From NCBI GenBank assembly GCA_027023255.1, contig JALVVU010000070.1, forward strand, positions 1-48,463: a DNA stretch of 48,463 nucleotides, written 5' to 3'. The notes beneath the pieces are model-generated. The model was not told where the DNA came from and did not search any database. It saw nothing but the letters and a program-made list of their open reading frames with translations. Shown here piece by piece: positions 1,127-43,929 of this stretch; the stretch's first letter is position 1, and every line of letters starts with the position of its first letter. The DNA is from Desulfurococcales archaeon (GTDB lineage: Archaea; Thermoproteota; Thermoprotei_A; Sulfolobales; NBVN01). The position numbers and the translations under genes were made by a program.

Positions 1127-3487
1127 TTATGTGCCCGCAAATCTTATGGTGGCTATGGCCTGACCTAAGGCTATTCCTCCATCACCTGCTGGGGCCTTCG
1201 TTGGGAGGAGTACCTTAGTGGTAGGTGATGCTAACTTCACGGCTTTCTTCAGGCCACGCACTATGAAGTCATTAACCATTGCACCTCCGCCCAAGACGAT
1301 CGTGTCTGACTCGAACTCCTTGAGGGTCTCCGCAGCTACCCTACCTAGGGCTAGGCCTAGGCCTTCCTGGACGGATCTGGCGGCATCACGTGGCGTGACC
1401 TCCTTCCTCACGTGAACTAACTCGTACGTCTTCATCAGTGCGTCAACAACGCTAATCACCCTTACCTCACCCGCCTCCCTCTCGGTGAAGGAGTTAAGTA
1501 TGCGTGGGTCGCTCGCCGCACCCCTAGCGAAGGACTCGAGCTTGATGGCGGGCTCGCCCTCGTAAGTCCTCCTTAAGCAAACACCTAGGAGTGATGAAGC
1601 GGCATCCAAGAATCTCCCCGCGGACGATGACCACACCACGTTGCCTGACTTGATTGAGGAGGCAAGCATCCTTACCTCAACCTCACCCAGTCTCAGCCCG
1701 TTAATCGCTCCTGACGCCCTCAGCACCTTAAGCGCTTCGTCAACCCCGTACTTATGGGCTAGGGCTGTGAAGAGGTACCTAGCTGGGAACTCAACCGTGA
1801 CGTCCCCTCCAACCAGGGGTAGGTACTCGAGGTGTGCTACCCTCTCGTAGCTTAAATCTTCGTGAATAACGAAAACCTCGCCACCCCACACCGCGCTGTC
1901 ATCGCCGTACCCCACACCATCAGCTATGACTGCCACGACGCCCTTACCCAGCAACCCGTGCTCAGCCATCGTGGCTAGTGCGTGGGCGTAGTGGTGCTGA
2001 ACCTCGATTACGTGCCGCGTTCCCCACTCTCGGGCACGGGCTAGTCCCAAGGATCTGGAGGTGTATGATGGGTGCTTGTCAACTACGACCGTGGCGTTCC
2101 GCGTGATGATGCGGTAGTTGCGGATTAGGTAGTCAATAAACTTGACCAGGTCTTGAGCCGTGTCCAGGTCGCTTAGGTCGCCGACGTACTGTGTGAGGAT
2201 CACCTTGTCCTCGAACCCCACGGCCCCCGCACCCTGTAGGTCGGCGCCAAAGGCAATAACGTCCCTAGGTAACTTACGGCGTATCTTAACCCAGGTTGGG
2301 GCGTATCCCCTAGACCTCCTGAGCATGACGGGTGTCCCGTCCGTGAATCTGAGGACTGAGTCATCAACCCTATTCACTATGACCCTATCGTGGTGTAGGA
2401 AGTAGTCGACGAAGCCGGAGAGAACCTTCCTAGCGCATTCCTCGTTAATGCACATGGGTTTCCCGTGGGGGTTGCCGCTCGTCATTATGAGGAACTTATC
2501 CTTGGTTTCCTGTAGGAGTAGGTAGTGAAGGGCTGTGTACGGCAGGAACACACCCTCAACGTCCAGCCCTGGGGAGACGTACTTAGAGACAGGGGTGTTC
2601 TCAGCCTTAGGGAGTAACAGTATCGGTGACTGCGGTGACGTCAGGATCTCCTCAGCCTCCTTACTTAACTTGACGAGCTTACTCAGCACACTCAGGTTAA
2701 GGCCCATGACAGCGAAGGGCTTCGTTGGTCGCCCTTTTCTCCTCCTCAGCTCGAGCACCACGTCATCGTCGCTGGCTAGTGCGGCTATGTGGTAGCCTCC
2801 GAGGCCCTTGACAGCCACTATATTACCTTCATCCACGAGCTTAGCGGCCTCTGAGATTGGGTCCTTAGCACTTATTAGGTTCCCCTCGCGGTCCTCGAGC
2901 CAGAGCCTAGGTCCGCATTTAGGGCAGCTAATGCCTTGCGCGTGGTAACGCCTGATGTTGTTGATGTCCCCGTACTCCTTAAGGCATTCCTCGCAGAGGG
3001 GGAAGTCACGCATTGACGTGTTCTCCCTGTCGTATGGTGTCCTGTACATCATTGAGAATCTGGGGCCGCACCACGCGCAGGAGTTGAAGGCGTACCTGAA
3101 GCGCCTGTCGTTAGGGTTAAGTACTTCGGCTAGGCAGTGGGGGCATATGGCTAGGTCCGGCGGTATCATCGAACGTTTAACGACGGCACTGCCGCTCCTA
3201 AGTATCCGGAAGTCCCGTAACCCCCTAGGCTTGACCGGGGTTATCTCGATGGACTCAATTATGGCTGGGGGCGGTCTCTCCTCGATTAATCCTTTAAGGA
3301 ACCTCGAGACGGAGTCAGCGCTACCCTCCAAGTGAATCTCGACTTCAGAACCACCTACGTTCCTCACGTACCCGGCTACGCCGGTGCTTAGAGCTAACCT
3401 ATGGATGAAAGGGCGGAACCCGACGCCCTGAACTATCCCCTCAACCGTTACGTGAAGCGCTACCCTACCGTCGCTGCTTGCGTTCAT
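1127..3487 (-). CDS. hypF: Carbamoyltransferase HypF, [NiFe]-hydrogenase maturation
   Basis: Acylphosphatase domain (GIVQGVGFRPFIHRLA), paired CxxC zinc fingers (CPHCLAE...CAWCGPRF...CEEC...CPKCGPRL), YrdC-like and Kae1-like (HHYAHALATMAEHG) domains. Confidence 0.95.
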   Translation of the reverse strand: MNASSDGRVALHVTVEGIVQGVGFRPFIHRLALSTGVAGYVRNVGGSEVEIHLEGSADSVSRFLKGLIEERPPPAIIESIEITPVKPRGLRDFRILRSGSAVVKRSMIPPDLAICPHCLAEVLNPNDRRFRYAFNSCAWCGPRFSMMYRTPYDRENTSMRDFPLCEECLKEYGDINNIRRYHAQGISCPKCGPRLWLEDREGNLISAKDPISEAAKLVDEGNIVAVKGLGGYHIAALASDDDVVLELRRRKGRPTKPFAVMGLNLSVLSKLVKLSKEAEEILTSPQSPILLLPKAENTPVSKYVSPGLDVEGVFLPYTALHYLLLQETKDKFLIMTSGNPHGKPMCINEECARKVLSGFVDYFLHHDRVIVNRVDDSVLRFTDGTPVMLRRSRGYAPTWVKIRRKLPRDVIAFGADLQGAGAVGFEDKVILTQYVGDLSDLDTAQDLVKFIDYLIRNYRIITRNATVVVDKHPSYTSRSLGLARAREWGTRHVIEVQHHYAHALATMAEHGLLGKGVVAVIADGVGYGDDSAVWGGEVFVIHEDLSYERVAHLEYLPLVGGDVTVEFPARYLFTALAHKYGVDEALKVLRASGAINGLRLGEVEVRMLASSIKSGNVVWSSSAGRFLDAASSLLGVCLRRTYEGEPAIKLESFARGAASDPRILNSFTEREAGEVRVISVVDALMKTYELVHVRKEVTPRDAARSVQEGLGLALGRVAAETLKEFESDTIVLGGGAMVNDFIVRGLKKAVKLASPTTKVLLPTKAPAGDGGIALGQAIATIRFAGT

Positions 3488-11452: not shown

Positions 11453-12793
11453 CTAGCCGGAGTCAGGAGGCGGTAATGGGGCACCCGTCTCCTTGAATAA
11501 TTTCATTAACTGCGGGCCCAGCTCGCTAAGTACCTTCTGGATATCCTCTCCCTGAAGCACTATCCTTCTGAAGGCAGTTATGTATATGCTCTTGAAGTCA
11601 CCGCTCTTGGACCCGAGGCTCGGGATCATGGCGACGAGGGCATTAGGTGCGTTAAGCTGGGCATTAACACCTTCAGCAAGAACCTTAAGCGCACCACTCG
11701 GGATGCTCTTGGAAGCCTCTTGAACCGTTGGGAAGAACCCTGTCTTCTTCAGCACCTCAACCTGAGTGCTTGGCTGTGTTAGGTAGTCAATGAGCTTCCA
11801 GGCCGCCTTCGGGTTGGGAGCGTTCTTCGGTATTGCTAAGCCAGCAACCACCAGTATGAAGCCCCTGCCCTTTGGGCCTTGAGGCACGGGCACAACCACG
11901 AACTGGTTAGGCTCCTGCTCGATAGCGTCCTTAATCCTTGCGGTGTGGTCCCACGCGATCCAGACCTGACCCTTCAGTAGCGGGTCAGCCATCGCGTCCC
12001 ATGTCGTGCTGGCTGGGTTCACGTACTGCCAGAGCTTCTTGAGGTACTGCCACATCTTAACGGCATCAGGACTGTCGAAGTTCTTGACCTGGGCACCAGT
12101 GAATGCTGGGTATAGGTACCCATGCAGGAACCTCACGAACAGGCCGTGTGGACCTGCGGGGAAGCCCAGCAACTTCTTGCCGGTCTTCTCGTAGAGGTTC
12201 TTAGCCCAAGCCAGTAGGGCGTCGTAGGTCCACTTACTAGTACCCTTGATGACGTCCTCCTCAGTAAGGCCCGGAGGCAGGTACTTGAAGGCCTTCTTAT
12301 TAATGACCATTACGTAGGTGGCGGTCATCCACGGTATGTATGCTTGGATACCATGGAGCTTCGCATAATTCATTAACACCTTCGGGAACGTCCTACCCGG
12401 TAGTGTGCCGAACTTACTTAAATCCATTAGATATCCCTTGGAGGCCATCATGTCTAAGTCGCCATGAAGATCACCAATTAGGCTTATCGTCACCTTACCT
12501 GCCTGCTCCTCCGACGTAATCCTAGTAATCATCTGGGAGTAGGACATGCCAACAAACTCCACATCAATTCCTGTTTTCTTTTTGAAGTCCGCTAGCAATG
12601 TTCCTTTAACGAATGATTGCTCCTCAGGAGGTACTAGCTGTGTTGACGCCCAGATTATCTTTGTTGGCCCGCGTTGCTGAGTAGTGTAGTACCAGTAACC
12701 CACCCCAGCCGCTATGACAATAACGATTATAGCCACTATAACTCCGGCTGCGGCCTTACTAATAGCTTTACGTGTATTACGGGACAATCTCAT
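11453..12793 (-). CDS. ABC transporter extracellular solute-binding protein (family 1 type)
   Basis: N-terminal hydrophobic anchor, then a solute-binding fold (FKKKTGIDVEFVGMSYSQM...; NPKAAWKLIDYLTQPSTQVEVLKKTGFFPT); heads the operon. Confidence 0.9.
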   Translation of the reverse strand: MRLSRNTRKAISKAAAGVIVAIIVIVIAAGVGYWYYTTQQRGPTKIIWASTQLVPPEEQSFVKGTLLADFKKKTGIDVEFVGMSYSQMITRITSEEQAGKVTISLIGDLHGDLDMMASKGYLMDLSKFGTLPGRTFPKVLMNYAKLHGIQAYIPWMTATYVMVINKKAFKYLPPGLTEEDVIKGTSKWTYDALLAWAKNLYEKTGKKLLGFPAGPHGLFVRFLHGYLYPAFTGAQVKNFDSPDAVKMWQYLKKLWQYVNPASTTWDAMADPLLKGQVWIAWDHTARIKDAIEQEPNQFVVVPVPQGPKGRGFILVVAGLAIPKNAPNPKAAWKLIDYLTQPSTQVEVLKKTGFFPTVQEASKSIPSGALKVLAEGVNAQLNAPNALVAMIPSLGSKSGDFKSIYITAFRRIVLQGEDIQKVLSELGPQLMKLFKETGAPLPPPDSG

Positions 12794-13212
12794 GGTAGGT
12801 ACCTCTTAGGTAAAGGGTCTGTGCTTAGTATAAATATCTTTATATTCATCATTGAAACGTCAGAGGAAGTAAACATACTTTATTCTATTAACGCTTCAGA
12901 ATAAAGTTAAAATAGGGTTAAAAATTATTGTACGGTAATCTCTTGAATAATACGAATAGTCAATGATTAAATTAATCTAAAATTTTTACAACTTTTACTG
13001 CAATTGCTTCAGTAACTTAGTGAAATAATTATAATGAATTTAGGTGAGGATTATTCATGTTTTACGAGGCTAAATAGTGTATATGTGAAAAAAAGCTATC
13101 TAGTTAGGAGATATCTTACTTCTTATAGTAGTAGCGAAGGAGAATTTTGGGGCCTATTCAGTAGCTTATATTTACCATTAATTACTTACTTTGTTAAACA
13201 TATTTTATTTAC

Positions 13213-13926
13213 CTACGGTAGGATTCCCTCAATACATTCGGGAGGTACGTACTCAACCACCCACACCGCCTTTGATGCTCTGCGGACGGTTAAGCCCTTC
13301 TTCCTTAGGCAGTCAGCGTTTATCTTTAGGACTACCACGTCGCTACCGTGTCTGCAACCTGTCTCATACGCGTCCTTGAGGTTTGATGTTAGGTGTACCC
13401 ATACCCTCCTACCGGGGAGTATTCCCTCATGCCTTATTCTTTGCCATGCCCTCGCCGTCGTTCCGTGGTATAGGGTCTTCACGTTCTCGTCAACAGCGTG
13501 CGTTAGGGTCACTTTAATGCTGTGCCCGTATCTTGCCCTTATCTTGTTTCCGCGGATCTCGAACCTTCCTTTAGGGTCTAGTTCGGCGACCGCACGTATG
13601 TGACGCTCAGTTACCCATGAGTATAGTTCCTTATTCCTCCATGCCTTAGTGATGCCCTTAACAAGTTCCTTAAGTGTGACCCACCCTTCCTTATCTAGCG
13701 TGAGTCCGGCTTCATGAGGTATGTGTCTGAGGAGGGCGCTCATTAGCTTGCTTAGTGCCACGCGTTGTCTGTTACTCATTAATGGTTCAGCATATCCAGC
13801 GCATTCCTTAGGATTTAAGGTGTACTTAACGTCAACGCCGTTCTCCACGCATGCGTATACGTACTTATCTTCCCCCAACATCACTTCACCCCAAGCAGCA
13901 GGAATTCTACTTGCCTTTTCACACAT
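13213..13926 (-). CDS. kptA: RNA 2'-phosphotransferase (KptA/Tpt1)
   Basis: LSKLMSALLRHIPHEAGLTLDKEGWV, YGHSIKVTL, LYHGTTARAWQRIRHEGILPGRRVWVHLTSN motifs. Confidence 0.92.
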   Translation of the reverse strand: MCEKASRIPAAWGEVMLGEDKYVYACVENGVDVKYTLNPKECAGYAEPLMSNRQRVALSKLMSALLRHIPHEAGLTLDKEGWVTLKELVKGITKAWRNKELYSWVTERHIRAVAELDPKGRFEIRGNKIRARYGHSIKVTLTHAVDENVKTLYHGTTARAWQRIRHEGILPGRRVWVHLTSNLKDAYETGCRHGSDVVVLKINADCLRKKGLTVRRASKAVWVVEYVPPECIEGILP

Positions 13927-14041
13927 GACTTACCGTGACGTTAGTGTGTTGTGCCTTAACAGTATCCAGTTTCTATAGGGGGTAATAGCTCAATATAAGG
14001 AACCCACAGTCTTGAACAACGTTGAGGGAAAAAGGGTTTGG

Positions 14042-16378
14042 TTAGCTTAGTTCAACCGAGGATATAACCTTCATTGTGTTTAGGTCAACACTCTGCACTA
14101 ACGTCTGTGAGATGGCGTATAGGTAATCACCTATGTAGAGCGACCTGATGACGTCGAGGTGCCGTATTTTCCCAGCGACGCTGAGTTTGCCGCCATCGCT
14201 TATCCTTATTATGTATAGGTACCCGCTTACCTTGCCTTCACCATACACCCTCACGGGTATGCATAGATACCCTTTGGCCGGGTTTATTAGGAATGCCTTG
14301 TGATCCCATAACACTTGGGAGGTGCTCCACCCTCCCCGGATTTTAATCACTGATGTTTCTGTTATGTTCTTGGGGTTGCTTACGTCGTAGAGGGAGATCT
14401 TCAGGCCCCTTATCCTTCCGTTTTCGTCAGCGTCTAAGCCGACACCTATTAGGTAGTGGTCCTTGTATGGGTGTAGGTACTCAGAGAATCCGGGCATCTT
14501 CACGAACCCTATTACCTTGGGGTTCCTCGGATCGCTGAGGTCTATAGCGAAGAGTGGGTCGGTTCTTCTGTATGTCACGAGGTATAGGTACTTACCCACA
14601 TACCTAGCGGCGTAGACCCTCTCGCCTGGTTCCAGCCCCTCCAACTTACCCACGATCTTGAGGTTGGATGCGTTCAGCACGTACACGTTATTTACGTCCT
14701 CATAGACAGGTATGACTGTGGGAACAATGTTGCCGGAGTACCCGGCAATCCTGAATTCCTTTATCATTGTCGCTGTGGTTGCTACTCTGAAGTACCCGTC
14801 ACGTTCATCCATAGCGAATTGATCCAGCACCCTTCCGCTGACTTTTGCATGCGCTACCATTGCCGCAGTTAATCCTTCTAGCTTAAGCCTGAAGACGTGC
14901 GTCACTGTTAGCGGTCTTCCAGTGATGTTCTTTTCTAGGTACTCGTACACGCTCGTGAATATCTTGATTAGGTCCTCCTTAGGTGCGCTCCTCATGTACT
15001 CCTCCAATACGTTCCCTGCCTTCGCTAGCCTAACGTAGATTGGCAGTGACGTGTTGGATAGAGTCGCATTTATCCTGACGACCACGTCATGCGGGAGGTT
15101 GGGAAGCACCGCGTTCTTGATTACATCGAGCATTATTTCGTAGTATGACCACCGGCTTGAGAGCAGGTATATCGACTCCTTACTAACGTATACTCTGTCA
15201 GGGTAAGGCATGACATATGCTTTCGCATCGAAGTTTCCATCACTTAGGCTTAGGCCGGCCACGACGACGTACCCGTTATTGTAGGGCATTACGTCCTTGA
15301 GTGACACGTACATAATCTTGTTAGGCGGCATTACCTTGCCGTTAACGGCTGGAACCACTACTGAGGATTCTCCCTCCTCCCGACCGTAGAGAGGTATGAT
15401 GAAGTTGTTGCGAATGACCGTTACTACGTACACCTTATCCCCTATCATCCTGGCGGCCAGTACCCACCCACTTACGCTGTCCTTATACTTCAGAACTGGT
15501 TCCTCGTGGTTGCTCACGTCGTAAACTAACACTGTGGTGTTCTGGACCGGCTTAATCACGGGTATTGGGGGCGCGGGCGCCCTGGTCGTGGTTACGGTTA
15601 CCGTGGTTGTTGCCGGTGTTGAGGACGTTACTGTGTACTTAAGCACCCTGTAATACGTGGTGCTACTGTTAATCACCACTAATCGATTGTTATTTATGAA
15701 TATCCCGTTCACGCTACCCAGCACTTCGACCTTGGACACTAGCTTCATATTGCTGGGCGGGTACGCGAGTATTATGTAGATGGGTGTTCTCTGAATATAG
15801 ATTTCCTTCCCGTTCAACCGTGTCTTGATGAGGCTCGGTCTCCCAACTAGGTATATGTACCTGCCGTCAGTCTTCACGATGTCAGCCTCATCTACCCCAG
15901 CTACCTGGACGTTCGTGTGTGAGTACTCAGGTGTCGAACTCCCTGTACTGGCCGTGGTGGTGGCTGTTACCGTGGTGACGAGGGGTGTCGTTGCGAGTGC
16001 CGGCACTTTAATCCCTGCCTGAACCATTTCCGCATACACTGCTGCGCCACCAAGTGGGTAGTATTGCGTTAAGCCGCTACTGACGATGTTCGCTAGTTCC
16101 TCGTAGCTCTTTATGGGCTTCACGAATGACGCGTCACCTGCGTTGCTTGATGGCTTTGTGCTCGTTGTTGTGGTCGTGCTTGGGTGGGTATGAGTTGTTG
16201 TTGAGTTACTTAGTGCCGTGGTTATACTTGTTGTTGTGGTTGTCGGCATATGCTCCTGCATCGTGATGGTTAGTAAGGCTGTGAGACCAGCTAGTAATAT
16301 GAGTGCAAGTATGAGTGTTGCTGAGAGCTTCCCCGTCCTTAGCTTGGAGCGTACTTTATTCATCACGGTGTCCTTCAC
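14042..16378 (-). CDS. Secreted/anchored beta-propeller domain protein
   Basis: N-terminal TM/signal, Thr-rich linker, VQVAGVDEADIVKTDGRYIYLV (hallmark of the archaeal Beta_propel family), repeated propeller strands. Confidence 0.8.
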   Translation of the reverse strand: MKDTVMNKVRSKLRTGKLSATLILALILLAGLTALLTITMQEHMPTTTTTSITTALSNSTTTHTHPSTTTTTSTKPSSNAGDASFVKPIKSYEELANIVSSGLTQYYPLGGAAVYAEMVQAGIKVPALATTPLVTTVTATTTASTGSSTPEYSHTNVQVAGVDEADIVKTDGRYIYLVGRPSLIKTRLNGKEIYIQRTPIYIILAYPPSNMKLVSKVEVLGSVNGIFINNNRLVVINSSTTYYRVLKYTVTSSTPATTTVTVTTTRAPAPPIPVIKPVQNTTVLVYDVSNHEEPVLKYKDSVSGWVLAARMIGDKVYVVTVIRNNFIIPLYGREEGESSVVVPAVNGKVMPPNKIMYVSLKDVMPYNNGYVVVAGLSLSDGNFDAKAYVMPYPDRVYVSKESIYLLSSRWSYYEIMLDVIKNAVLPNLPHDVVVRINATLSNTSLPIYVRLAKAGNVLEEYMRSAPKEDLIKIFTSVYEYLEKNITGRPLTVTHVFRLKLEGLTAAMVAHAKVSGRVLDQFAMDERDGYFRVATTATMIKEFRIAGYSGNIVPTVIPVYEDVNNVYVLNASNLKIVGKLEGLEPGERVYAARYVGKYLYLVTYRRTDPLFAIDLSDPRNPKVIGFVKMPGFSEYLHPYKDHYLIGVGLDADENGRIRGLKISLYDVSNPKNITETSVIKIRGGWSTSQVLWDHKAFLINPAKGYLCIPVRVYGEGKVSGYLYIIRISDGGKLSVAGKIRHLDVIRSLYIGDYLYAISQTLVQSVDLNTMKVISSVELS

Positions 16379-34500: not shown

Positions 34501-35523
34501 TCACCCCCAAGAAATGCCTGTTAGAGAGTACATAATTAGTCGGAACACTACCGCGATACCGGCTGCTGCAGGAACCGTTAGGAGCCACGACAGCATGATC
34601 TTCAGCATCACACCCCAATTCACCCCCTTAACTCCGTGTCTAGCCATGCCCACCCCAAGCACTGCTGAGACAGATGCATGAGTAGTTGATATCGGCATGC
34701 CATATCCCCAAAGCATCGTCGGTATGGTAGTGTACACCCACACCACGGATGCGTTGGCTATGACTGCCGCTGCAGCCATCGTCATGTCTAGCCTGGTTAT
34801 CCTAAACGCCACCGTCCTAATGACGCGTGGTCCAAGCATGAATCCCCCGAGAGCTATTCCTGCCGCACCAAGCATCGAGAGACCCACTGCAGTCCTGTAG
34901 TCAAACCCCGTAGCAATTCCTCCAGCCCTCACTACCGCCGCGTAAACCCCCGTGGCGTTACCGACATCATTAGCTCCAAAGGCGTAAGCAGAGTATGCGA
35001 GGCCAGCGATGAGAAGGGCCCTCAGGAATTTCTCCCTGCGTGCATCGTCCTTAACCCTAGCAAACAAGTACCTAAGAACTACGTAGAGGCCCGCGGCAAG
35101 CAACGCCGCCCCTATAGGGGAGGTTATCCAGCTTAACACCACCTTAACTAATACGCCATAATTTATCCCCGTGTACCCCCTCATTAAGCACCTAGCTAAC
35201 GCGACCCCAAGCACAGCACCGACAGATGAGTGAGTCGTTGATATCGGTAACCCTTTCCACGACGACATTATTATCCAGAAGGCAGTCGCCATCGACGCTG
35301 CTAGCGCGTCGCACACGGTCTCGATCTCCGCTATGCCTCCACCGAACGTCTTAATCACCATCCAGCCCTGAATCACGGATCCCAAGAAAGCGAATGCCGA
35401 GAATAAGGCAACAGCCTTCTTGATGCTCAGAGCTCCCCCACCCACAGCTGTCGATGTTGGGTTAGCCGCATCATTCGAGCCTATGGACCAAGCTACATAG
35501 AACGCCAAGGCGAGCCCTAACAA
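34501..35523 (-). CDS. PiT-family inorganic phosphate transporter
   Basis: GSNDAANPTSTAVGGGALS, GLPISTTHSSVGAVLG, FGANDVGNATG, GMPISTTHASVSAVLGVG. Confidence 0.95.
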   Translation of the reverse strand: MLGLALAFYVAWSIGSNDAANPTSTAVGGGALSIKKAVALFSAFAFLGSVIQGWMVIKTFGGGIAEIETVCDALAASMATAFWIIMSSWKGLPISTTHSSVGAVLGVALARCLMRGYTGINYGVLVKVVLSWITSPIGAALLAAGLYVVLRYLFARVKDDARREKFLRALLIAGLAYSAYAFGANDVGNATGVYAAVVRAGGIATGFDYRTAVGLSMLGAAGIALGGFMLGPRVIRTVAFRITRLDMTMAAAAVIANASVVWVYTTIPTMLWGYGMPISTTHASVSAVLGVGMARHGVKGVNWGVMLKIMLSWLLTVPAAAGIAVVFRLIMYSLTGISWG

Positions 35524-35582
35524 GACTAAAGGCCCTACCGTCGTAGCCCAGCATTTTTTCGAAAGATCAAATATTAAACATT

Positions 35583-35656
35583 AAAGTTCAAAGTTCGCAG
35601 AAATGATGAAGGAAAAACGCTTCAATTTCTCTAAAGATTAATTAGAGAAGATTAAT
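35583..35656. promoter_or_regulatory. Repeat-rich divergent promoter region between PiT and the C25 protease
   Basis: AAAGTTC x2 tandem (35583-35596); TCTCTAA-N7-TTAGAGA palindrome (35628-35648); AGATTAAT direct repeats at 35635 and 35649. Confidence 0.45.
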
Positions 35657-35721
35657 CATCCTGGTAATTGACTATTTACTTATTTAGGTCAGCCCTCACT
35701 CAATCACTAGGTAATGATGTA

Positions 35722-38700
35722 ATGCCTTTGGCACGATGCACTCACAGAAAGGCGTTGGTGCCTGCCATTACGATCGCATTAGTCCTTCTCCTATCTTTTA
35801 TCACGCCTAGCGTAGCGCCTAGCTTGAGGCAGCGTGATAACCCCATTAACTACGTGTTAGCTAGGAATGGGTTCGTTGGGCTACCCGCGATTGCCCCGTT
35901 ACCTACGCTAGTACCTGCGTCCACGAGTGCTGGATTTATTGGCAACGTGTCGGCGGTTGTGACAACCTCCGATCAATCCCCTCCGCCCATACCTAAGCCT
36001 GTCAGTTACCCTGAAAGTCCTGGGACTATCTTGATCTTACCTCAAGGTACTCTAACCCCTCAGCATTTGAAGTCCCTAGGTGTGAGGTTTGAATACGTTA
36101 TAGTTACTTCATCCACATTACTACGGAGCGTCATTCCCCTAGCGGCGATCCATGCCGCCGAAGGTATGAACGTACTGGTAACTACTATGGACTGGATTAA
36201 AGCCCATTTCCCGGCGAAGAAGCCCTGTGATAGTTTAAGGGACTTCGCGCGATTCGCTCACTACGAGTTGGGTGCGGTGTACCTACTCCTTGCCGGTGAT
36301 GTGGACGTGGTTCCCACCGCTTACTGGTACTCGGAGGATCTTTTCTTGGATGCTGGTGAGGACGCGTATAAGGCGACTGACCAGTACTACGCTTTCCTAG
36401 ACGGTAACTGGGATCCTAACGGGAACGGCAAGCTTCTCGAAACCCTAGACACTAACGGGGACAACATACCTGACGAGAACCTCGAGCCCTTACCTGACTC
36501 CGTGCCTGACCTATACGTCGGTAGGTTACCGGCATCAACGCCCTCACAGATGGAGGCACTAGTCAATAACGTAATATCGTACCTGACCAACCCACCGCCT
36601 GGAAACTGGATTAGAAAAGCAATCTTAATTGCCGCAATAGCGAACTTCCGGAACGAATCTGGATCCAACGTACCTAAGGTCGACTTAGCTCAGGTCGCAC
36701 AGTACGTGTACAGGCTCCTCCTACCCTACAACTACACGATCATCCGGGTCTACCAAGATGAGGGCTTGGAGGCTACTACATACCCCCACGAGGTCAGCTT
36801 AACTCACTCTAACGTCGTGAAGCTACTCTCTGAAGGTAGCGGACTGCTTTACTCTGCAGCGCACGGCATACCGTTGGCTCAGGGCATGAAGGTATGGCTT
36901 AACGATACGAACGGTAACGGCATACCCGACAAAAATGAGATCACGTTCAGGTATTTCCTTCAGGTCTGGGATCCTGTGGACAATCATGGAAGGAGGTTCC
37001 TCGCGTACCTAGAAAGTTGCTTGACAGGATATTACGACTTCAGCCAGGATTCCTTGGCAGAGTATTTACTTAGGCACTCAGCCATAGCTGTCGTAGCCTC
37101 GAGTAGGGTCTCGTACTACCAAGTCCCGTGGCCCGGGCCTGGAGGGTGGCTCGATCAGGAGCTAGCGTACCTGTTCTGGAAGGAATTAACGAGCAACGCT
37201 GACTGGAAGCCGGGGCCGGCTCTTGAACTCAGTAAGTATGAATATATCAAGGAGCATGGCGGCAACGCATCCGCAATGAAGTTCATGAGCAAGAAGGACC
37301 TCCTAGACTACAACCTCCTAGGGGACCCAGCAATAACGGTATGGGTAAGCAAGCCGCTGAGGTTAAACATAACGTATGGGAGGTTAAGGGCGGGTACAAC
37401 TAATAAGATCATCGTTCAGGACGCGGCAGGTAGGCCGGTAGCTAAAGTCCTCGTAGCAATATACAGCGCGATAACCGGTAACCTACTCGCGTACAGCTAC
37501 ACGGACTCCTCAGGCGTCGCTACCCTCAACATACCGCCCCTCCAACACAACACTAAGGTATACATAGTGGCCCGTAAGGACGGATATACCTACGTCTTCA
37601 GAACAGCTTATGTTGCATATATTGGCGCTCCACCGGTCATTAACCTGAACTCACCTAACAACGAAACAATCTACGGCGCAGTAGTCCCCGTACTCGCCCA
37701 CATAGTGGACCCCGACGGTAACGTAACCGAGGTTAATGTCACAATTGAGGGTCCCGGCCTAAACCTCACTAAGTCGTACGCACCACGTAAAGCTGAATTC
37801 ACGGTGAACCTCACGGTCAGAATCAACGAGAGTGGTACCTACACGGTCACGGTGAGTGCTGTAGACAACGACGGCAACCGCGTAGCGGTTAAGAGAGTGT
37901 TCTTGGTTGACGTTACGCCCCCAACCATTACTGTAGAGGGCATCCGTAACTCCTCTATCACGAGCAAGGCTGGGGGCGTGATCCGCATCAGGGTTGAGGA
38001 CGTAAGCGGTGTGAAATATGTTGAGGTGGCTCTCGACGGAAAGGTGATTGCTAGGGAGTGGAACCTAAGCAAGAGCGCCGCGTTTAACGTCACGATCCCC
38101 TCGAATGAGGGGCCACACGCGCTACTGATTGTGACGGAAGATAATGCCCGTAACGTAGCTCACGAAGTAATCCTGTTCTACGTTGATTTAACCCCACCAA
38201 CTATAGATGTGTATCCAGCCATAAACAACTCAGTAATAAACCAGCACGTAGTGAAGAGTCTCATCATTACATGTAATGATAATTATAGGGTCGCGTACGT
38301 CACAATATACGTTGACGGTAAGCTCTCACTAAACGTTTCAAGGTACGAGCTGAAGAGCGTTAACCTAAGCAGGTTAAGTGACGGTCAGCACAACATAACA
38401 ATCATGGCCTTCGACGCCGCCGGAAACAGCAAGCGCGTCACCCTGCTCTTCTACGCGGACTCCACCCCACCCTCAGTAAAGTTGGCGGGGATCACGCCAG
38501 GAACGTATATCAACAAGTCCTCACTCACACTGCAGACCATCATGCATGATAACATCGGGTTGAAGTACGTTAAGATACTCCTCAATGGGAAAATCGTACT
38601 CGAGAAGACCTTCACTAAAGGCAACATCTCCGCATACCGTGAGGCGCTTCACGGCACAACGAACGTAGATCTCAAGCTAACGTTAAGCCTCAGTGACGGT

Positions 38701-39675
38701 CGCTACGTACTCGACGTCATCACGGCGGACCTAGCAGAGAACATCATATCTAAGAACATAACGTTCTACGTAGATACGACCCCACCTAAGGTTAAGGTAC
38801 TAATGCCTGAGAACGGTTCATACGTGAATACCACGGGCGTAACAATTAATGTAAGTGCTACCGATAACCTGTGCCTCGCATCAGTAATTGCGTACGTCAA
38901 CGGCTCGCCTGTGAAGCTAGTTAATGGGGTAGGCAAGTATGAGGCACCTGGCGAGGGCAAATACATCCTTAAGGTAAGTGTGAGGGACTGCGCAGGAAAC
39001 AAGGCCTCCAGCGACGAGGTTTTCCACGTGGACTTAACCCCTCCATCCATAACGTTCATCAAGCCTAGGGCGGGTGCCGTGGTTAGGACGCCTTTCCAGC
39101 TAAGCGTCAGTGTTAAGGATAATTATGGCGTGCGACTTATCTACGTCGTTATGGACGGTAGGGTGATCAAGGAATTCCGCCTCACGAAACCCCAGATTAA
39201 GTATGGAGTTAACGTAAGCCTTTCTGACCTGCAGGAAGGTCCCCACCGCATCGCTGTCGTGGCTGAGGACGTAGCAGGGAATGTTGGTAAGGGTAGCGTC
39301 ACATTAACAATTGATAATACGCCGCCAACGATATACTATATTAATGGAACTAAGTCATTCACTGAAGGAACCCTCAGGTTAGTGTTCAGGGTTAGTGAGC
39401 CGGTCAGTACGTTTAAAGCCTTGGTTGACAGACGCGCAGCAAAGGTGTTTAGGGTTGGGGATAATGAATGGGCAATCACGTTAAGTGACCTAAGCCCCGG
39501 AAAACATAACATCACAGTAATTGCCAAGGATCTGGCGGGCAATGTCGGCACGCTTAAACTAATCATCAGTATTAGCCATGCATACGTGCTTGAGGCAGTT
39601 GCCGCAGTGTTGGGGTTAGTGATCATAGTTATAATCGCACTATATTTACGGAGAAAACGGGGAGTGAATCCCTAG
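35722..39675 (+). CDS. Cell-surface gingipain-like (C25/caspase-fold) peptidase with Ig-like repeats and C-terminal TM anchor
   Basis: YLLLAGDVDVVPTAYW, putative catalytic His (SAAHG) and Cys (LESCLTGYYDFSQDSLAEYLLRHSAIAVVASSRVSYY), at least six DxTPP Ig-like repeat starts, C-terminal VLGLVIIVIIALYLRRKRG. ATG 35722 precedes a signal peptide better than TTG 35668. Confidence 0.8.
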   Translation: MPLARCTHRKALVPAITIALVLLLSFITPSVAPSLRQRDNPINYVLARNGFVGLPAIAPLPTLVPASTSAGFIGNVSAVVTTSDQSPPPIPKPVSYPESPGTILILPQGTLTPQHLKSLGVRFEYVIVTSSTLLRSVIPLAAIHAAEGMNVLVTTMDWIKAHFPAKKPCDSLRDFARFAHYELGAVYLLLAGDVDVVPTAYWYSEDLFLDAGEDAYKATDQYYAFLDGNWDPNGNGKLLETLDTNGDNIPDENLEPLPDSVPDLYVGRLPASTPSQMEALVNNVISYLTNPPPGNWIRKAILIAAIANFRNESGSNVPKVDLAQVAQYVYRLLLPYNYTIIRVYQDEGLEATTYPHEVSLTHSNVVKLLSEGSGLLYSAAHGIPLAQGMKVWLNDTNGNGIPDKNEITFRYFLQVWDPVDNHGRRFLAYLESCLTGYYDFSQDSLAEYLLRHSAIAVVASSRVSYYQVPWPGPGGWLDQELAYLFWKELTSNADWKPGPALELSKYEYIKEHGGNASAMKFMSKKDLLDYNLLGDPAITVWVSKPLRLNITYGRLRAGTTNKIIVQDAAGRPVAKVLVAIYSAITGNLLAYSYTDSSGVATLNIPPLQHNTKVYIVARKDGYTYVFRTAYVAYIGAPPVINLNSPNNETIYGAVVPVLAHIVDPDGNVTEVNVTIEGPGLNLTKSYAPRKAEFTVNLTVRINESGTYTVTVSAVDNDGNRVAVKRVFLVDVTPPTITVEGIRNSSITSKAGGVIRIRVEDVSGVKYVEVALDGKVIAREWNLSKSAAFNVTIPSNEGPHALLIVTEDNARNVAHEVILFYVDLTPPTIDVYPAINNSVINQHVVKSLIITCNDNYRVAYVTIYVDGKLSLNVSRYELKSVNLSRLSDGQHNITIMAFDAAGNSKRVTLLFYADSTPPSVKLAGITPGTYINKSSLTLQTIMHDNIGLKYVKILLNGKIVLEKTFTKGNISAYREALHGTTNVDLKLTLSLSDGRYVLDVITADLAENIISKNITFYVDTTPPKVKVLMPENGSYVNTTGVTINVSATDNLCLASVIAYVNGSPVKLVNGVGKYEAPGEGKYILKVSVRDCAGNKASSDEVFHVDLTPPSITFIKPRAGAVVRTPFQLSVSVKDNYGVRLIYVVMDGRVIKEFRLTKPQIKYGVNVSLSDLQEGPHRIAVVAEDVAGNVGKGSVTLTIDNTPPTIYYINGTKSFTEGTLRLVFRVSEPVSTFKALVDRRAAKVFRVGDNEWAITLSDLSPGKHNITVIAKDLAGNVGTLKLIISISHAYVLEAVAAVLGLVIIVIIALYLRRKRGVNP

Positions 39676-39721: not shown

Positions 39722-41272
39722 ATGACATTTGCTGGCCTAGCTACGGCGCTGTCGATACTACTGACCCTAGTGGGTTCCCTACTTAATTTAAGGTGGATAA
39801 GGCTAGGCAGCACTGTCTTCCTAGCCGGAACCCTAGTTCTTTTCATGAGGGTTACTTACTCGTTATTTCACTTAAGCGGGCTCTCTAGCGTTACGGCAGT
39901 GCAGGCTGTCTTTATCGCGTCGCTCTGCGTAGTGTGGGCTACGGCGGCGTCACGCGCACTTGCCATGGGAAGAATCAGGGATGTTAGGTCCGTGTTTCTT
40001 GCCGCAGCGCCTTCTTTTTACATATTGGTGTTGCTGGCGATTTTGATTAGTTCCGGCACATTACATGCTGTGTTAATTGATGCCTGCGTCGTCGCCCTAG
40101 TAGGGATTATTGTCGCGTCTAGGGGGCACAGGCCTCACGGGTTGGGACGTTTCGTGGCTGCGGTGTTGTTACCTGCGTCCTTACTTATTCATACCTCTAG
40201 CGTTGTTGGAGCCGAGCTTAGTGAGAGTAGCCTCAAGATTGTCATTCCCCTACTTGGATATGCTGTACTTGCTGCTGTCGTGCCCGCTCACCCATGGTTT
40301 TTGAGGGTAGTTACTGAGCGTGATGACGCATTCATAACTGCGGCGGCGGTAAGCGTTGTTTATCTGGGTTACTTCGGACTGACCTTAGGGTTAAGTGAGG
40401 TTGCGGATGACGTGACGCTCTGGGCTTTCAGCATGTTGGGCTTCGTGACGTTGTTTTACGCGTCCGCACACGCCTTCGCGAGGCGTGATTTAGGCGGATG
40501 CATCGCATACTATGTCTCAGCAACCACGGGATTTTTCTTGTCCTTCACCAGCATCTTAATGTTGCTTAGGGTCGACACCGCTATGTTCATTGCCGCGATT
40601 GTGGGTGCTGGCCCGATAATGTTCGTGCCCGCAATCCTACCTCCTACTGCCCGTCGGCCGAAGTCGGAGGTTGCACACACTCTAACTTCCGCGCTACCTC
40701 CTACGCTGGCCTTACTGTTGGCTTCGGGTGCCTTTCCCTCAATAAGTCTTGCTGGTAGAGCTTTGCTGGCGGCGACACTTTCGGGTTTGCAGGGATTGTC
40801 CTCCACACCGGTACTGGGGTTGCTTGTACTTAGCATAGCGATGCTCTCGGCGGCAGTAGCTAACTCCCTTAAGTTTAGGATGAGGTTGTGGGCTATGCTG
40901 GCTTCGCCATTATTTATGAATGCATCGTTAACCCTGATACTCTTTTGCGTCCTGCTACGGTTGTTACTAGGCCCGCTCACGTTAAGTGTTGCTCAGTTCA
41001 TGCCTTGGTTGCTCTTAATAGGTTTTACCTCAGGCTTTAGCGCTTGGCTTCTTGTGTGGCATGAAGTTCTAGGTGGTTTTCTGGAGAGGATCTTCACACA
41101 CCTTCCTAGCGCCGTAGTTAGTCTTGAGATGAGATTCAGATATGCTGCCGAGGGAATCATGGAATTACTGGAGGTTGTCGAGACAGAGGAAAGGTTCCTT
41201 GCTACCCTATCCCTACTGGTTCTGCTCGCGGCTACCGCGGCAGTAATACTTTTAGGAGGTGTTATGCCGTGA
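39722..41272 (+). CDS. Divergent antiporter-like (MrpA/NuoL-type) membrane subunit
   Basis: About 14 TMs, position immediately upstream of MrpB/C/D homologues, weak VVPAHPWFLRVVTERDDAF match to the NuoL/MrpA FPxHxWLPDA region. Confidence 0.5.
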   Translation: MTFAGLATALSILLTLVGSLLNLRWIRLGSTVFLAGTLVLFMRVTYSLFHLSGLSSVTAVQAVFIASLCVVWATAASRALAMGRIRDVRSVFLAAAPSFYILVLLAILISSGTLHAVLIDACVVALVGIIVASRGHRPHGLGRFVAAVLLPASLLIHTSSVVGAELSESSLKIVIPLLGYAVLAAVVPAHPWFLRVVTERDDAFITAAAVSVVYLGYFGLTLGLSEVADDVTLWAFSMLGFVTLFYASAHAFARRDLGGCIAYYVSATTGFFLSFTSILMLLRVDTAMFIAAIVGAGPIMFVPAILPPTARRPKSEVAHTLTSALPPTLALLLASGAFPSISLAGRALLAATLSGLQGLSSTPVLGLLVLSIAMLSAAVANSLKFRMRLWAMLASPLFMNASLTLILFCVLLRLLLGPLTLSVAQFMPWLLLIGFTSGFSAWLLVWHEVLGGFLERIFTHLPSAVVSLEMRFRYAAEGIMELLEVVETEERFLATLSLLVLLAATAAVILLGGVMP

Positions 41273-42039
41273 GAAGGTGCCGAAGGTTGCTTGCCGCTTT
41301 AGCGGTTGTAGTGGCTTCGCTCGCTATGGCTTACCTAGCGACGTTGAAGGGTGTCACGTTGCTTCCTGTTAGGGTCGAGTTGGGTGAGGCCGGGGCTTAC
41401 TACGTCACGCATTCGTACGTGATTGGTTTTAGCTTATGGGTGCGCTCTGTCGTGAATGCCGTTATCTGGGATTTCAGGGCTGTGGACACGTTCTTTGAGA
41501 CCGCAGTCCTCTTCGCCGCATTGCTTGCCGCACTCACGTTTACCGCGGAGCTAAGCGGAGCCCCACGAAGGGCAGGTAAGGGGGCGATGCTCTCACCGGT
41601 CGTCACTACGGTGCTCAAGCTATCGCTTCCCTTAGCGCTTGCTGTGGCTGGGGGGTTGGCTCTGGAAGGGCACCTCTCACCAGGTGGTGGTTTTCAGTCT
41701 GGCGCGGTTGTTGCGGTCATGGCTTTTCTGTTTATGGCCGTCCACGGCGTGTCTACTGGTTGGTTTGGTCATGTTAGAACCCTGCTCCTCACTAGGAGCG
41801 CAGCGTTACTCGCCCTCTCTGTGCTCGCCGTAGCGCCAGCCATCATGGGAATGCTATACGGTTTAGGCCCCTACGCACTAACTGGGAGGCCTGTGCCCAA
41901 GCTAGTGGTTCCTGGATGTTGTGTGGTTCCCGTGTACACCGTATTGCTTAACGTTTTCGAAGCGATCGCCGTTGGGGCCGCCTTCACTCTTGTCGGTCTT
42001 ATCGTATGGTCGTCAATAGGTGGTGAGGATAGTGAATGA
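41269..42039 (+). CDS. MbhE-like + MrpB (MnhB) fusion
   Basis: NAVIWDFRAVDTFFETAVLF (MbhE-like), then GGLALEGHLSPGGGFQSGAVVA (MnhB signature). Confidence 0.82.
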   Translation: MRRCRRLLAALAVVVASLAMAYLATLKGVTLLPVRVELGEAGAYYVTHSYVIGFSLWVRSVVNAVIWDFRAVDTFFETAVLFAALLAALTFTAELSGAPRRAGKGAMLSPVVTTVLKLSLPLALAVAGGLALEGHLSPGGGFQSGAVVAVMAFLFMAVHGVSTGWFGHVRTLLLTRSAALLALSVLAVAPAIMGMLYGLGPYALTGRPVPKLVVPGCCVVPVYTVLLNVFEAIAVGAAFTLVGLIVWSSIGGEDSE

Positions 42040-42445
42040 AGTAGACCTATTCCTTTTGAACTTAGCTATGGTTTCCTTGCTGGTGTCGATGGGGATAGGT
42101 ATTGTTGGCGTTATACTCAAGAGGAACGCTGTTAAGAAAGTGATTTGCTTGGGGATAGTCAGCGACGCCGTGGCGGTGCTACTAGCATTTATAGGCTTTA
42201 GAGTTAAGTACCCCTCACTCCCTCCCGTCTGGCTGTTTAAGGAGGGTAATGGGCTAGAGCACGCATTGAGGGTCTTCGTGGATCCCTTGCCTCAAGCCCT
42301 CGTCGTCACCTCCATCATAATAGGTGTGGCGTTCACGTTGTTCCTGTCAGTGGCTGTTGTGAGGTTCTATGAAGACTACGGCACGCTGAGTTTCGAGAGG
42401 GTGCTTGAGGAAGTTGAGGGAGAGGTTGAGGAGGGAAGTGAGTAA
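42020..42445 (+). CDS. MrpC/NuoK-like subunit
   Basis: DPLPQALVVTSIIIGVAFTLFLSVAVVRFYEDYGT, the MrpC signature. Confidence 0.88.
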   Translation: MVRIVNEVDLFLLNLAMVSLLVSMGIGIVGVILKRNAVKKVICLGIVSDAVAVLLAFIGFRVKYPSLPPVWLFKEGNGLEHALRVFVDPLPQALVVTSIIIGVAFTLFLSVAVVRFYEDYGTLSFERVLEEVEGEVEEGSE

Positions 42446-43929
42446 TGCAGGTCGTGTCCCCAGCACCGCTGCTATGCGTCGCTGTTCTCGCACCGGTCGT
42501 CACGGTGTTCACGTTACTCGTAGCTAAGGTTATGCGTAACGCTTCACTAGCTACTACTCTTTTCTGGGGTGGACTAGCAGCTGAGCTCGCTGTGTCGGTG
42601 CTGGTGGCTCTACGGGTGTTCGCTGGTGAGGTGCTTATTTATGCTTTTGGTGGGTGGCCCCCGCCAGCAGGCGTGGTGCTCATGGCTAACCGTGTTGCTG
42701 GCGTGTTCCTTCTCGTTGGTATTGCCGTTATTTTTGCCTGTGCTATTGCTTTGAAGTGGTTCTTGCGTGACTCAGGTGCTGACTTAGTGGCCGCATATGC
42801 CTTTACGTTGCTCTTTGCTTCCGGTTATGCGGGGGTCGTGTTAACCACTGATTTGTTTAACGTTTATGTAATGATGGAGTTACTCTGCATTTCTTCATAC
42901 GCCTTACTTTCCTTGAGGAGGGGGAGGGCCGTTGCTGCCGCCCTGAAGTACGCTGTGTTCGGTGGCTTGGCAGGCTTGATGCTTGCATTGTCTGCTGGCG
43001 TAATGTACGGCTTAAGCGGCTCGATGTACTTTGGCGATATTTCCCTCGCTGGTGTGGCTGGCTTAGGCGTGGCGGGAGGCGTCGCTGCATTAATGACTGT
43101 GTGGTCGCTTTCGTTCTTCTCCGCCTTATTTCCGAGCCATTTCTGGCTCCCTGACGCTCATTCCGAAGCTGTACCTCCGTTCTCCGCAATACTTTCTGGC
43201 GTGAGTGTCTTCACGGGGTTCTATGTGCTGGTCCGGTTAACTGATGTAGGGTTAAGCCCCATGGGTTTTGCAGCATCATTAGTTCAAATATTGGCGCAGG
43301 TCGGGGCCCTCTACGCCGCGGTAGCTATGCTCGTACAGAGAGACGTTAAGAGAATGCTAGCCTATAGTACAGTCTTGAACGCCGCATACATGTTCATGGG
43401 ATTAACTGCAGGCGTAGGTGGCGTCTCGGCTGCGTTGCTTCACGCCCTCACCCATATGTTGGGCAAGGCTCTGGCTTTCCTCTCTGTTGGGGTGTTAGTT
43501 AAGTGGGTTGGGTCTAGGGATATCTACGTTTTAGAGGGTATGGGTAGGGCCGTGCCCGGCGTGCTCATACCGCTGACAGCCAGTGTACTGAATCTAGTGG
43601 GCGTCCCCCCGTTTCCTGGCTTCATAAGTAAGGTTACCCTTTATGGGGCACTAATGACTCACGGATCCTTATCGGCAGCCTTAGTACTTGTCCTAACTTC
43701 CGGTATCGCCGCATTATCTTACATTAGATTACTTGAGCACCTGTGGCATTCCCCAGTGAAGCACGTAGGAGTATTCAAGTTACCCCTTACGATGTCCTTT
43801 GCCATCTACGGCCTAACGGCGGCGATGGTTCTGCTGAGCGTAGCATGCACACCACTAGTGAGAATCTTCAACAATGCGCTTGGTGTTCAGCACATCGTAT
43901 ACTCTCTAGCGGAATCAGTGATGCCTTAG
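42445..43929 (+). CDS. MrpD-like proton-conducting transporter subunit
   Basis: FNVYVMMELLCISSYALLSLRR, FPSHFWLPDAHSEAVPPFSAILSG, DVKRMLAYSTVLNAAYMFMGL, HMLGKALAFL. Confidence 0.88.
   Translation: MQVVSPAPLLCVAVLAPVVTVFTLLVAKVMRNASLATTLFWGGLAAELAVSVLVALRVFAGEVLIYAFGGWPPPAGVVLMANRVAGVFLLVGIAVIFACAIALKWFLRDSGADLVAAYAFTLLFASGYAGVVLTTDLFNVYVMMELLCISSYALLSLRRGRAVAAALKYAVFGGLAGLMLALSAGVMYGLSGSMYFGDISLAGVAGLGVAGGVAALMTVWSLSFFSALFPSHFWLPDAHSEAVPPFSAILSGVSVFTGFYVLVRLTDVGLSPMGFAASLVQILAQVGALYAAVAMLVQRDVKRMLAYSTVLNAAYMFMGLTAGVGGVSAALLHALTHMLGKALAFLSVGVLVKWVGSRDIYVLEGMGRAVPGVLIPLTASVLNLVGVPPFPGFISKVTLYGALMTHGSLSAALVLVLTSGIAALSYIRLLEHLWHSPVKHVGVFKLPLTMSFAIYGLTAAMVLLSVACTPLVRIFNNALGVQHIVYSLAESVMP

Follow-up and report, generated by a model that had tools for sequence, protein, structure and literature searches.

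A four-gene Mrp-like block in an archaeal genome, without its cation module and with the TM7 lysine of MrpD lost

The window, by which we mean the whole 48,463-nucleotide stretch analysed here (contig C70 of a draft archaeal genome of 1.7 Mb), carries a block of four genes related to subunits of the Mrp antiporters: an A-like subunit, a fusion of MbhE and MrpB that we call EB, MrpC and MrpD. The same four-gene arrangement recurs in related archaea, where it belongs to a clade in which an eight-gene Mrp operon is sister to the other members; the lysine of transmembrane helix 7 (TM7) is absent from MrpD throughout that clade, and in a single genus, that of the window, the A subunit has decayed. 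From these sequences we lean slightly towards reading the block as a proton-handling, four-subunit derivative of a stand-alone Mrp, which would have no sodium coupling and in which A would serve as a clamp. The original prediction, of a stripped-down Mrp-like module with channel lysines lost from both large subunits, is partly confirmed in its observations and partly supported in its interpretation.

The block and its genes

The four open reading frames (ORFs) overlap consecutively in the ORF list, their order is the one predicted, and family matches identify the last three:

39722..41272, plus strand: A-like subunit, 516 amino acids; a degenerate antiporter-like subunit of MrpA-N/MbsH' type with a C-terminal lateral-helix region, from profile alignment to block A subunits
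41269..42039, plus strand: EB, MbhE-MrpB fusion, MbsE-like, 256 amino acids; MnhB 7.6e-10, MbhE 2e-4
42020..42445, plus strand: MrpC/NuoK-like subunit, 141 amino acids; PF00420 8.9e-17
42445..43929, plus strand: MrpD-like subunit, 494 amino acids; PF00361 4e-43

As the original prediction stated, no MrpE, MrpF, MrpG or DUF4040 gene stands beside these four, which have a C25 peptidase gene upstream and an unrelated minus-strand gene downstream. EB and MrpC are otherwise ordinary members of their families. The MbhE match of EB is weak and lies below the MbhE cut-off, and the best solved relative of the EB family profile is MbsE (6u8y_E, 1.3e-22); D73 and E77 of EB are invariant, and MrpC keeps D49. 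Taken together, an MbhE-MrpB fusion, MrpC, MrpD and a second antiporter-like subunit make up the set seen in the membrane arms of MBS, MBH and complex I, and the block has all of them.

What has MrpD lost, and what has it kept?

Residues of MrpD were placed by reference to MbsH of the solved MBS complex (PDB 6u8y), and their conservation was read from 87 rows, namely ten block MrpDs (that of the eight-gene operon, locus L023, included) and 77 other archaeal MrpDs. The positions that matter most are these:

42877..42879, plus strand: E145, TM5 glutamate kept; equals MbsH E138, and glutamate in 87/87 rows
43117..43119, plus strand: F225, TM7 lysine lost; aligned with MbsH E219, at the end of helix 205-225 and before the TM7 break in the model
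43210..43212, plus strand: F256, TM8 lysine position; aligned with MbsH K250
43441..43467, plus strand: H333 to K341, TM11 histidine and lysine kept; equal to MbsH H330/K338, in helix 323-355 of the model
43630..43632, plus strand: K396, TM12 lysine kept (motif FISKV); equals MbsH K393, and lysine in 10/10 block MrpDs

The TM7 site holds phenylalanine, leucine or isoleucine in every block row, so that the lysine is missing more often than chance would give, from 10/10 block MrpDs as against 12/77 of the others, where the site reads K in 65, E in 5, G in 5, L in 1 and Q in 1. E145, H333, K341 and K396 are kept in all ten. The predicted retention of the TM5 glutamate and loss of the TM7 lysine are both borne out. 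The TM12 lysine is kept as claimed, but it is K396, and the segment HMLGKALAF that had been assigned to it belongs to TM11, where it supplies H333 and K341. Lysine is indeed absent at TM8, but it is not canonical there: among the 77 other rows 41 have asparagine and only 22 have lysine. We therefore rejected TM8 lysine loss as a special trait, asparagine being the commonest residue at that site among archaeal relatives.

An AlphaFold model of MrpD built from 37 sequences is confident (pLDDT, the predicted local distance difference test score, 87; pTM, the predicted template modelling score, 0.90). It has TM7 broken into 205-225 and 235-241 with F225 at the break, and it superposes on MrpD of solved Mrp complexes (7qru_D, 6z16_D) and on MbsH with TM-scores of 0.90-0.91 (0.90 for 7qru_D). 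By its PF00361 match and its antiporter fold, then, the window protein is an MrpD in the sense of Mrp (CPA3). In a comparison of block with other MrpD rows, no compensating titratable residue was gained clade-wide in the helices TM4-TM8 of the N-terminal half-channel; the sole titratable gain in that region is a loop position after residue 161, and the window MrpD does not have it.

These residues bear directly on whether the block might simply be a shortened Na+/H+ (or K+/H+) antiporter, in which cations would enter at the interface of EB, C and D and leave via D73/E77 of EB, with MrpD working without its TM7 lysine much as MbsH does with a glutamate (E219). The invariance of D73/E77, the retention of the MrpD TM5 glutamate and of D49 in C, and the 12 other archaeal rows that have also dispensed with the TM7 lysine all speak for it. 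Set against them, the entire known cation entry path, that is MrpE, F, G and the DUF4040 glutamate, is gone, the TM7 residue of the block is hydrophobic and never acidic, and in the Bacillus-type Mrp these missing parts are reported to be essential (PMC7419157). We regard such an antiporter as improbable.

Channel residues vary in other MrpD-like proteins as well. One further type (L012 11203-12747, a gene of a hydrogenase-type operon, and L086, L089, L094 and L095) has glutamate for the TM11 lysine and asparagine for the histidine (SNSFGEALLF), and MrpD-like proteins of Methanomethylicota (L087, L091, L092, L093 and L098) have glycine at TM7 and glutamine at TM8, so that channel lysines are missing there too.

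An E-H-x-W-H signature at the end of TM13

43735..43749, plus strand: EHLWH signature, E431-H435, at the C-terminal end of TM13 of MrpD, from comparison of block with other rows

Here the block MrpDs have gained titratable residues relative to the other rows (E431, H432 and H435), with the consensus [LIM]-E-H-x-W-H-x-P. E431 is conserved in 10/10, H432 in 9/10 and H435 in 8/10; the MrpD of the eight-gene operon has alanine at the H432 site (E-A-I-W-H). The pattern EH..[HYK] occurs in none of the 77 other archaeal MrpD rows, and a search of the DNA of 398 genomes of the phylum for EHLWHxP gave four matches outside the window's genus, none of them in MrpD. To judge from the alignment, E-H-x-W-H is a signature new to the block MrpDs. 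The end of TM13 that bears it presumably faces the cytoplasm, if NuoN-type topology is followed. The lateral helix of MrpA also runs along the cytoplasmic side (PMC9568556).

A degenerate A subunit in one genus

The first protein of the block has no match in Pfam, NCBIfam or PDB searches, and PF00361 matches none of the three A-like members of the genus although it matches 6/6 block A subunits. We compared its profile (hhalign) with a family built from six block A subunits, which gave 94.7% probability (E 6.4e-8) over 439 columns, as against 0.1% for reversed profiles and 0.2% for block D. The A-like subunit, at 16-19% identity to block A, is on this evidence a degenerate block A that has drifted beyond detection by Pfam, colinear with the MrpA-N/NuoL/MbsH' family of antiporter-like subunits; the controlled comparison rejects the idea of an unrelated membrane protein.

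Its channel residues were read from an alignment of 11 A rows, eight from block genomes outside the window's genus and three from within it:

40079..40081, plus strand: D120, TM5 acid kept; D or E in 11/11 A rows
40268..40270, plus strand: L183, TM7 lysine lost; lysine in 8/8 block A rows outside the genus
40757..40759, plus strand: R346 at the TM12 lysine position; arginine in 3/3 of the genus, lysine in 8/8 block A outside

The segments LAAVVP and VVYLGYF do correspond to TM7 and TM8, as had been proposed, and the TM12 lysine is indeed missing, replaced by an arginine that is invariant across three species. The stretch of TM11 with its histidine and lysine is deleted, which leaves the TM5 acid as all that remains of the family's channel set (TM5 acid, TM7 lysine, TM11 histidine/lysine, TM12 lysine), and a TM8 lysine is absent from every block-family A subunit among these 11 rows. 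The pairing of TM7 lysine with TM5 glutamate that characterises MrpA and MrpD is therefore broken in both large subunits (L183 and F225), with the TM5 acids D120 and E145 still in place. The C-terminal lateral-helix region can still be aligned with block A.

What does not survive is the idea that both large subunits lost their lysines together as a single event. All eight relatives outside the genus keep the TM7 and TM12 lysines in A, and so the MrpD TM7 loss is common to the whole block clade, whereas A decayed independently of it, in one genus.

It may be asked whether the block in this genus is merely a functionless relic on its way out, with A the first to go. The degenerate A, the very long branch of the window's MrpD and the existence of a genome of the same genus (G004, 97% complete) with no A subunit all point in that direction. 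However, the A-like subunit is under purifying selection: the ratio of nonsynonymous to synonymous substitution rates (dN/dS) is 0.275 against genome G003, where EB gives 0.147, C 0.197 and D 0.13 for the same pair, and 0.179 against G001 with dS near saturation, and the most constrained part, amino acids 111-282, falls to 0.06-0.09. Across the block, then, dN/dS stays at 0.13-0.28, two species have all four reading frames undamaged and a third has an intact A, and EB, C and most of the MrpD motifs are kept, so decay strikes us as the least probable of the readings considered here.

Are the missing subunits supplied from elsewhere?

In the genome of the window MnhB has four homologues, F, G and DUF4040 are each present three times and E twice. 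Apart from the window's own MnhB, every one of these genes lies together with NuoB/C/D/I-type subunits in one of three complexes (on contigs C109, C150 and C10; comparison with G004 indicates that contig C32 probably belongs with C10). None of the E, F, G or DUF4040 genes in this genome lies outside these hydrogenase-type complexes, and the EB of the window is consequently the one without partners. Two relatives settle the matter of gene content for the clade. Genomes G124 and G031, each assembled as one contig at 99% completeness, encode MnhB twice but E, F, G and DUF4040 only once, and that sole set lies at a different locus from the four-gene block; because the block has no such set of its own there, the four-gene form is real and an assembly gap hiding E, F and G can be rejected. 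MrpE, F, G and DUF4040 genes do exist elsewhere in the window's genome, but all of them are within the three hydrogenase-type complexes.

A rival reading is a mosaic, in which the subunits of the block would take their MrpE, F, G and DUF4040 partners from the hydrogenase operons, or would form an alternative membrane arm for the hydrogenases, yielding a full antiporter or a redox pump. In its favour are the F, G, DUF4040 and E copies of the window's own genome, all of them in hydrogenase-type complexes, the presence of at least one E/F/G/DUF4040 set in every checked block genome, and the otherwise ordinary character of EB and C. Against it, wherever the contigs permit a view, the redox operons come with an EB, C, E and D of their own, the block is far from them in the single-contig genomes, and the absent TM7 lysine would still disturb the coupling site. 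A mosaic is in our opinion unlikely, though it is the alternative that we take most seriously. Nor does a scaffold for another redox complex, the other role that had been suggested, find positive support, since no NuoB, C, D, H or I homologue adjoins any copy of the block whose flanks could be seen.

As regards the three complexes themselves, their large subunits (L012 17189-18904; L013 5673-6896, minus strand; L014 2978-4699, minus strand) have CxxC motifs like those of group 4 [NiFe] hydrogenases, of the types RICGIC and DPCFSC, and in G004 the equivalent of the C32 and C10 complex adjoins a CO-dehydrogenase-like gene. The window itself has, at 1127-3487 on the minus strand, what looks by eye like a HypF-like hydrogenase maturation protein, which fits the presence of three hydrogenase-type complexes.

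Distribution and history

The prediction proposed looking for the same four-gene block in other genomes, and it does recur in related archaea. The window's block is 90-94% identical to one in another Desulfurococcales metagenome-assembled genome (WAOL01000090.1), and the order A-EB-C-D with unrelated flanks is found in G124, G125 (L036), G031, G042 (L024) and G214 (L021) as well as in the window's genus, while in G213 (L025) and G142 (L020) it agrees up to the contig ends. Of the 229 genomes of the class, 8, in seven genera, are recovered with the block A profile (E <= 1e-105), and matches to the A-like profile are confined, within the order, to three genomes from the window's genus; together these span about eight archaeal genera. 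In G125 (C1) block A appears twice, at 12616-14466 and 34939-36789, inverted and with equal scores, which is probably a palindromic assembly artefact.

Genome G153 (L023) has instead the eight-gene order F-G-DUF4040-E-A-EB-C-D. In a tree of concatenated EB, C and D, from which the TM7 and TM8 columns were removed, the ten block rows fall into a single clade, supported at SH-aLRT 100, in which L023 is sister to the rest. The monophyly comes from this concatenated tree only: MrpD alone, or EB and C alone, gives no single block clade, although an approximately unbiased (AU) test on MrpD (p 0.65) keeps one acceptable. The inner order of the tree is unsure because of long branches, that of the window above all. 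The window block has the traits that define the A-EB-C-D clade, namely its place in that one clade, a hydrophobic TM7 site and E-H-x-W-H in MrpD. The eight-gene operon differs from the four-gene blocks in keeping the cation module and in an MrpD with a TM8 lysine and E-A-I-W-H, but there too the TM7 lysine is lost (Ile). Given a sister lineage that still has all eight genes, the four-gene blocks are probably products of the loss of the cation module. On the simplest history, an eight-gene Mrp in which MrpD had already lost its TM7 lysine first shed this module, and A then decayed in one genus.

What might the block do?

Current models of Mrp have cations travelling via MrpE/G/F, E706 of MrpA-C and a cavity between MrpC and MrpD, with the TM7 lysine/TM5 glutamate pair of MrpD coupling them to proton movement (PMC7419157; see also PMC9568556), and place the proton path around the TM12 and TM8 lysines (PMC7419157). 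In these terms the block would have kept the proton side (A as MrpA-N/MbsH', EB as MbsE, C as MrpC and D as MrpD) and dropped MrpE, F and G together with DUF4040 (MbsD). With the cation path and the coupling lysine of MrpD both gone, the complex would no longer exchange Na+ for H+, and the original doubt that this is a standard Na+/H+ antiporter gains from the absence of the cation module in the single-contig relatives and from a lysine missing from the coupling pair itself. The C-terminal half-channel of MrpD (H333, K341, K396) may still carry protons, whether through a leak that is gated or under some drive besides Na+. In the window's genus, A would no longer translocate protons and would be retained for structure, with its C-terminal lateral-helix region acting as a clamp. 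Helix HL joins the two antiporter-like subunits, and MBH retains a shortened HL on MbhI (PMC7684303); the putative clamp can be likened to MbhI, which keeps only the lateral-helix region.

Several observations weigh against this proton-handling derivative. All of the 10 checked block genomes encode E, F, G and DUF4040 elsewhere, so that borrowing is possible; D73 and E77 of EB resemble the proposed Mrp cation exit in motif and spacing, and some cation role may remain; MbsH has a TM7 glutamate instead of a lysine and is nevertheless termed a proton pump (PMC7684303). The structure model of the A-like subunit, finally, is weak (pLDDT 54): among the 50 Foldseek matches listed for it all are antiporter-like subunits, but family rows were in the alignment behind the model, so these matches are not independent.

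Comparison with known systems sharpens the picture. The closest is the MBS membrane arm of Pyrococcus furiosus (MbsH', MbsE, MbsG and MbsH; 6u8y), which has the same four subunit types, the MbhE-MrpB fusion among them, and an MbsH that likewise does without the TM7 lysine. The block differs in having no MbsA, B, C or D and no redox subunits, in a TM7 residue that is hydrophobic rather than glutamate, in its degenerate A-like subunit and in its E-H-x-W-H. With the seven-subunit Mrp Na+/H+ antiporters of groups 1 and 2 (Bacillus, Anoxybacillus, Dietzia) it shares homologues of MrpA-N, MrpB, MrpC and MrpD in one operon free of redox subunits, and the MrpD fold, but it has no MrpE, F or G, no DUF4040 part of MrpA-C and no TM7 lysine in MrpD, and the MbhE part is fused to MrpB and not, as there, to MrpA. 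It is thus not the complete A-to-G operon with DUF4040 that defines Mrp (CPA3). The stand-alone Mrp of P. furiosus (mrpEFGBB'CD) is also partly reduced, but in the opposite sense, having no MrpA and keeping the cation module (PMC8415708). We found no description of a block like the present one in the open-access literature that was searched, most subscription journals being outside it.

A bolder proposal, which we hold to be rather doubtful, is that the block might represent a distinct class of the complex-I superfamily: a machine of four subunits that handles protons with neither a cation nor a redox partner, is regulated from the cytoplasmic side through E-H-x-W-H (pH or metal sensing) and has an MrpA that can be reduced to a clamp. 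If true, it would be a natural split of the proton half of Mrp from the cation half. Mrp, MBH, MBS and respiratory complex I all pose the question of how proton movement in subunits of the MrpA/MrpD type is tied to Na+ or to redox reactions, and since the cation module and the MrpD TM7 lysine are gone and the rest is kept, the block is a natural minimal system for asking whether that lysine serves coupling or conduction.

The neighbouring gene

Directly upstream of the block, at 35668-39675 on the plus strand, lies the gene for the C25 peptidase, a protein of 1335 amino acids with Ig-like repeats, and such a gene precedes the block in all three block-bearing species of the window's genus.

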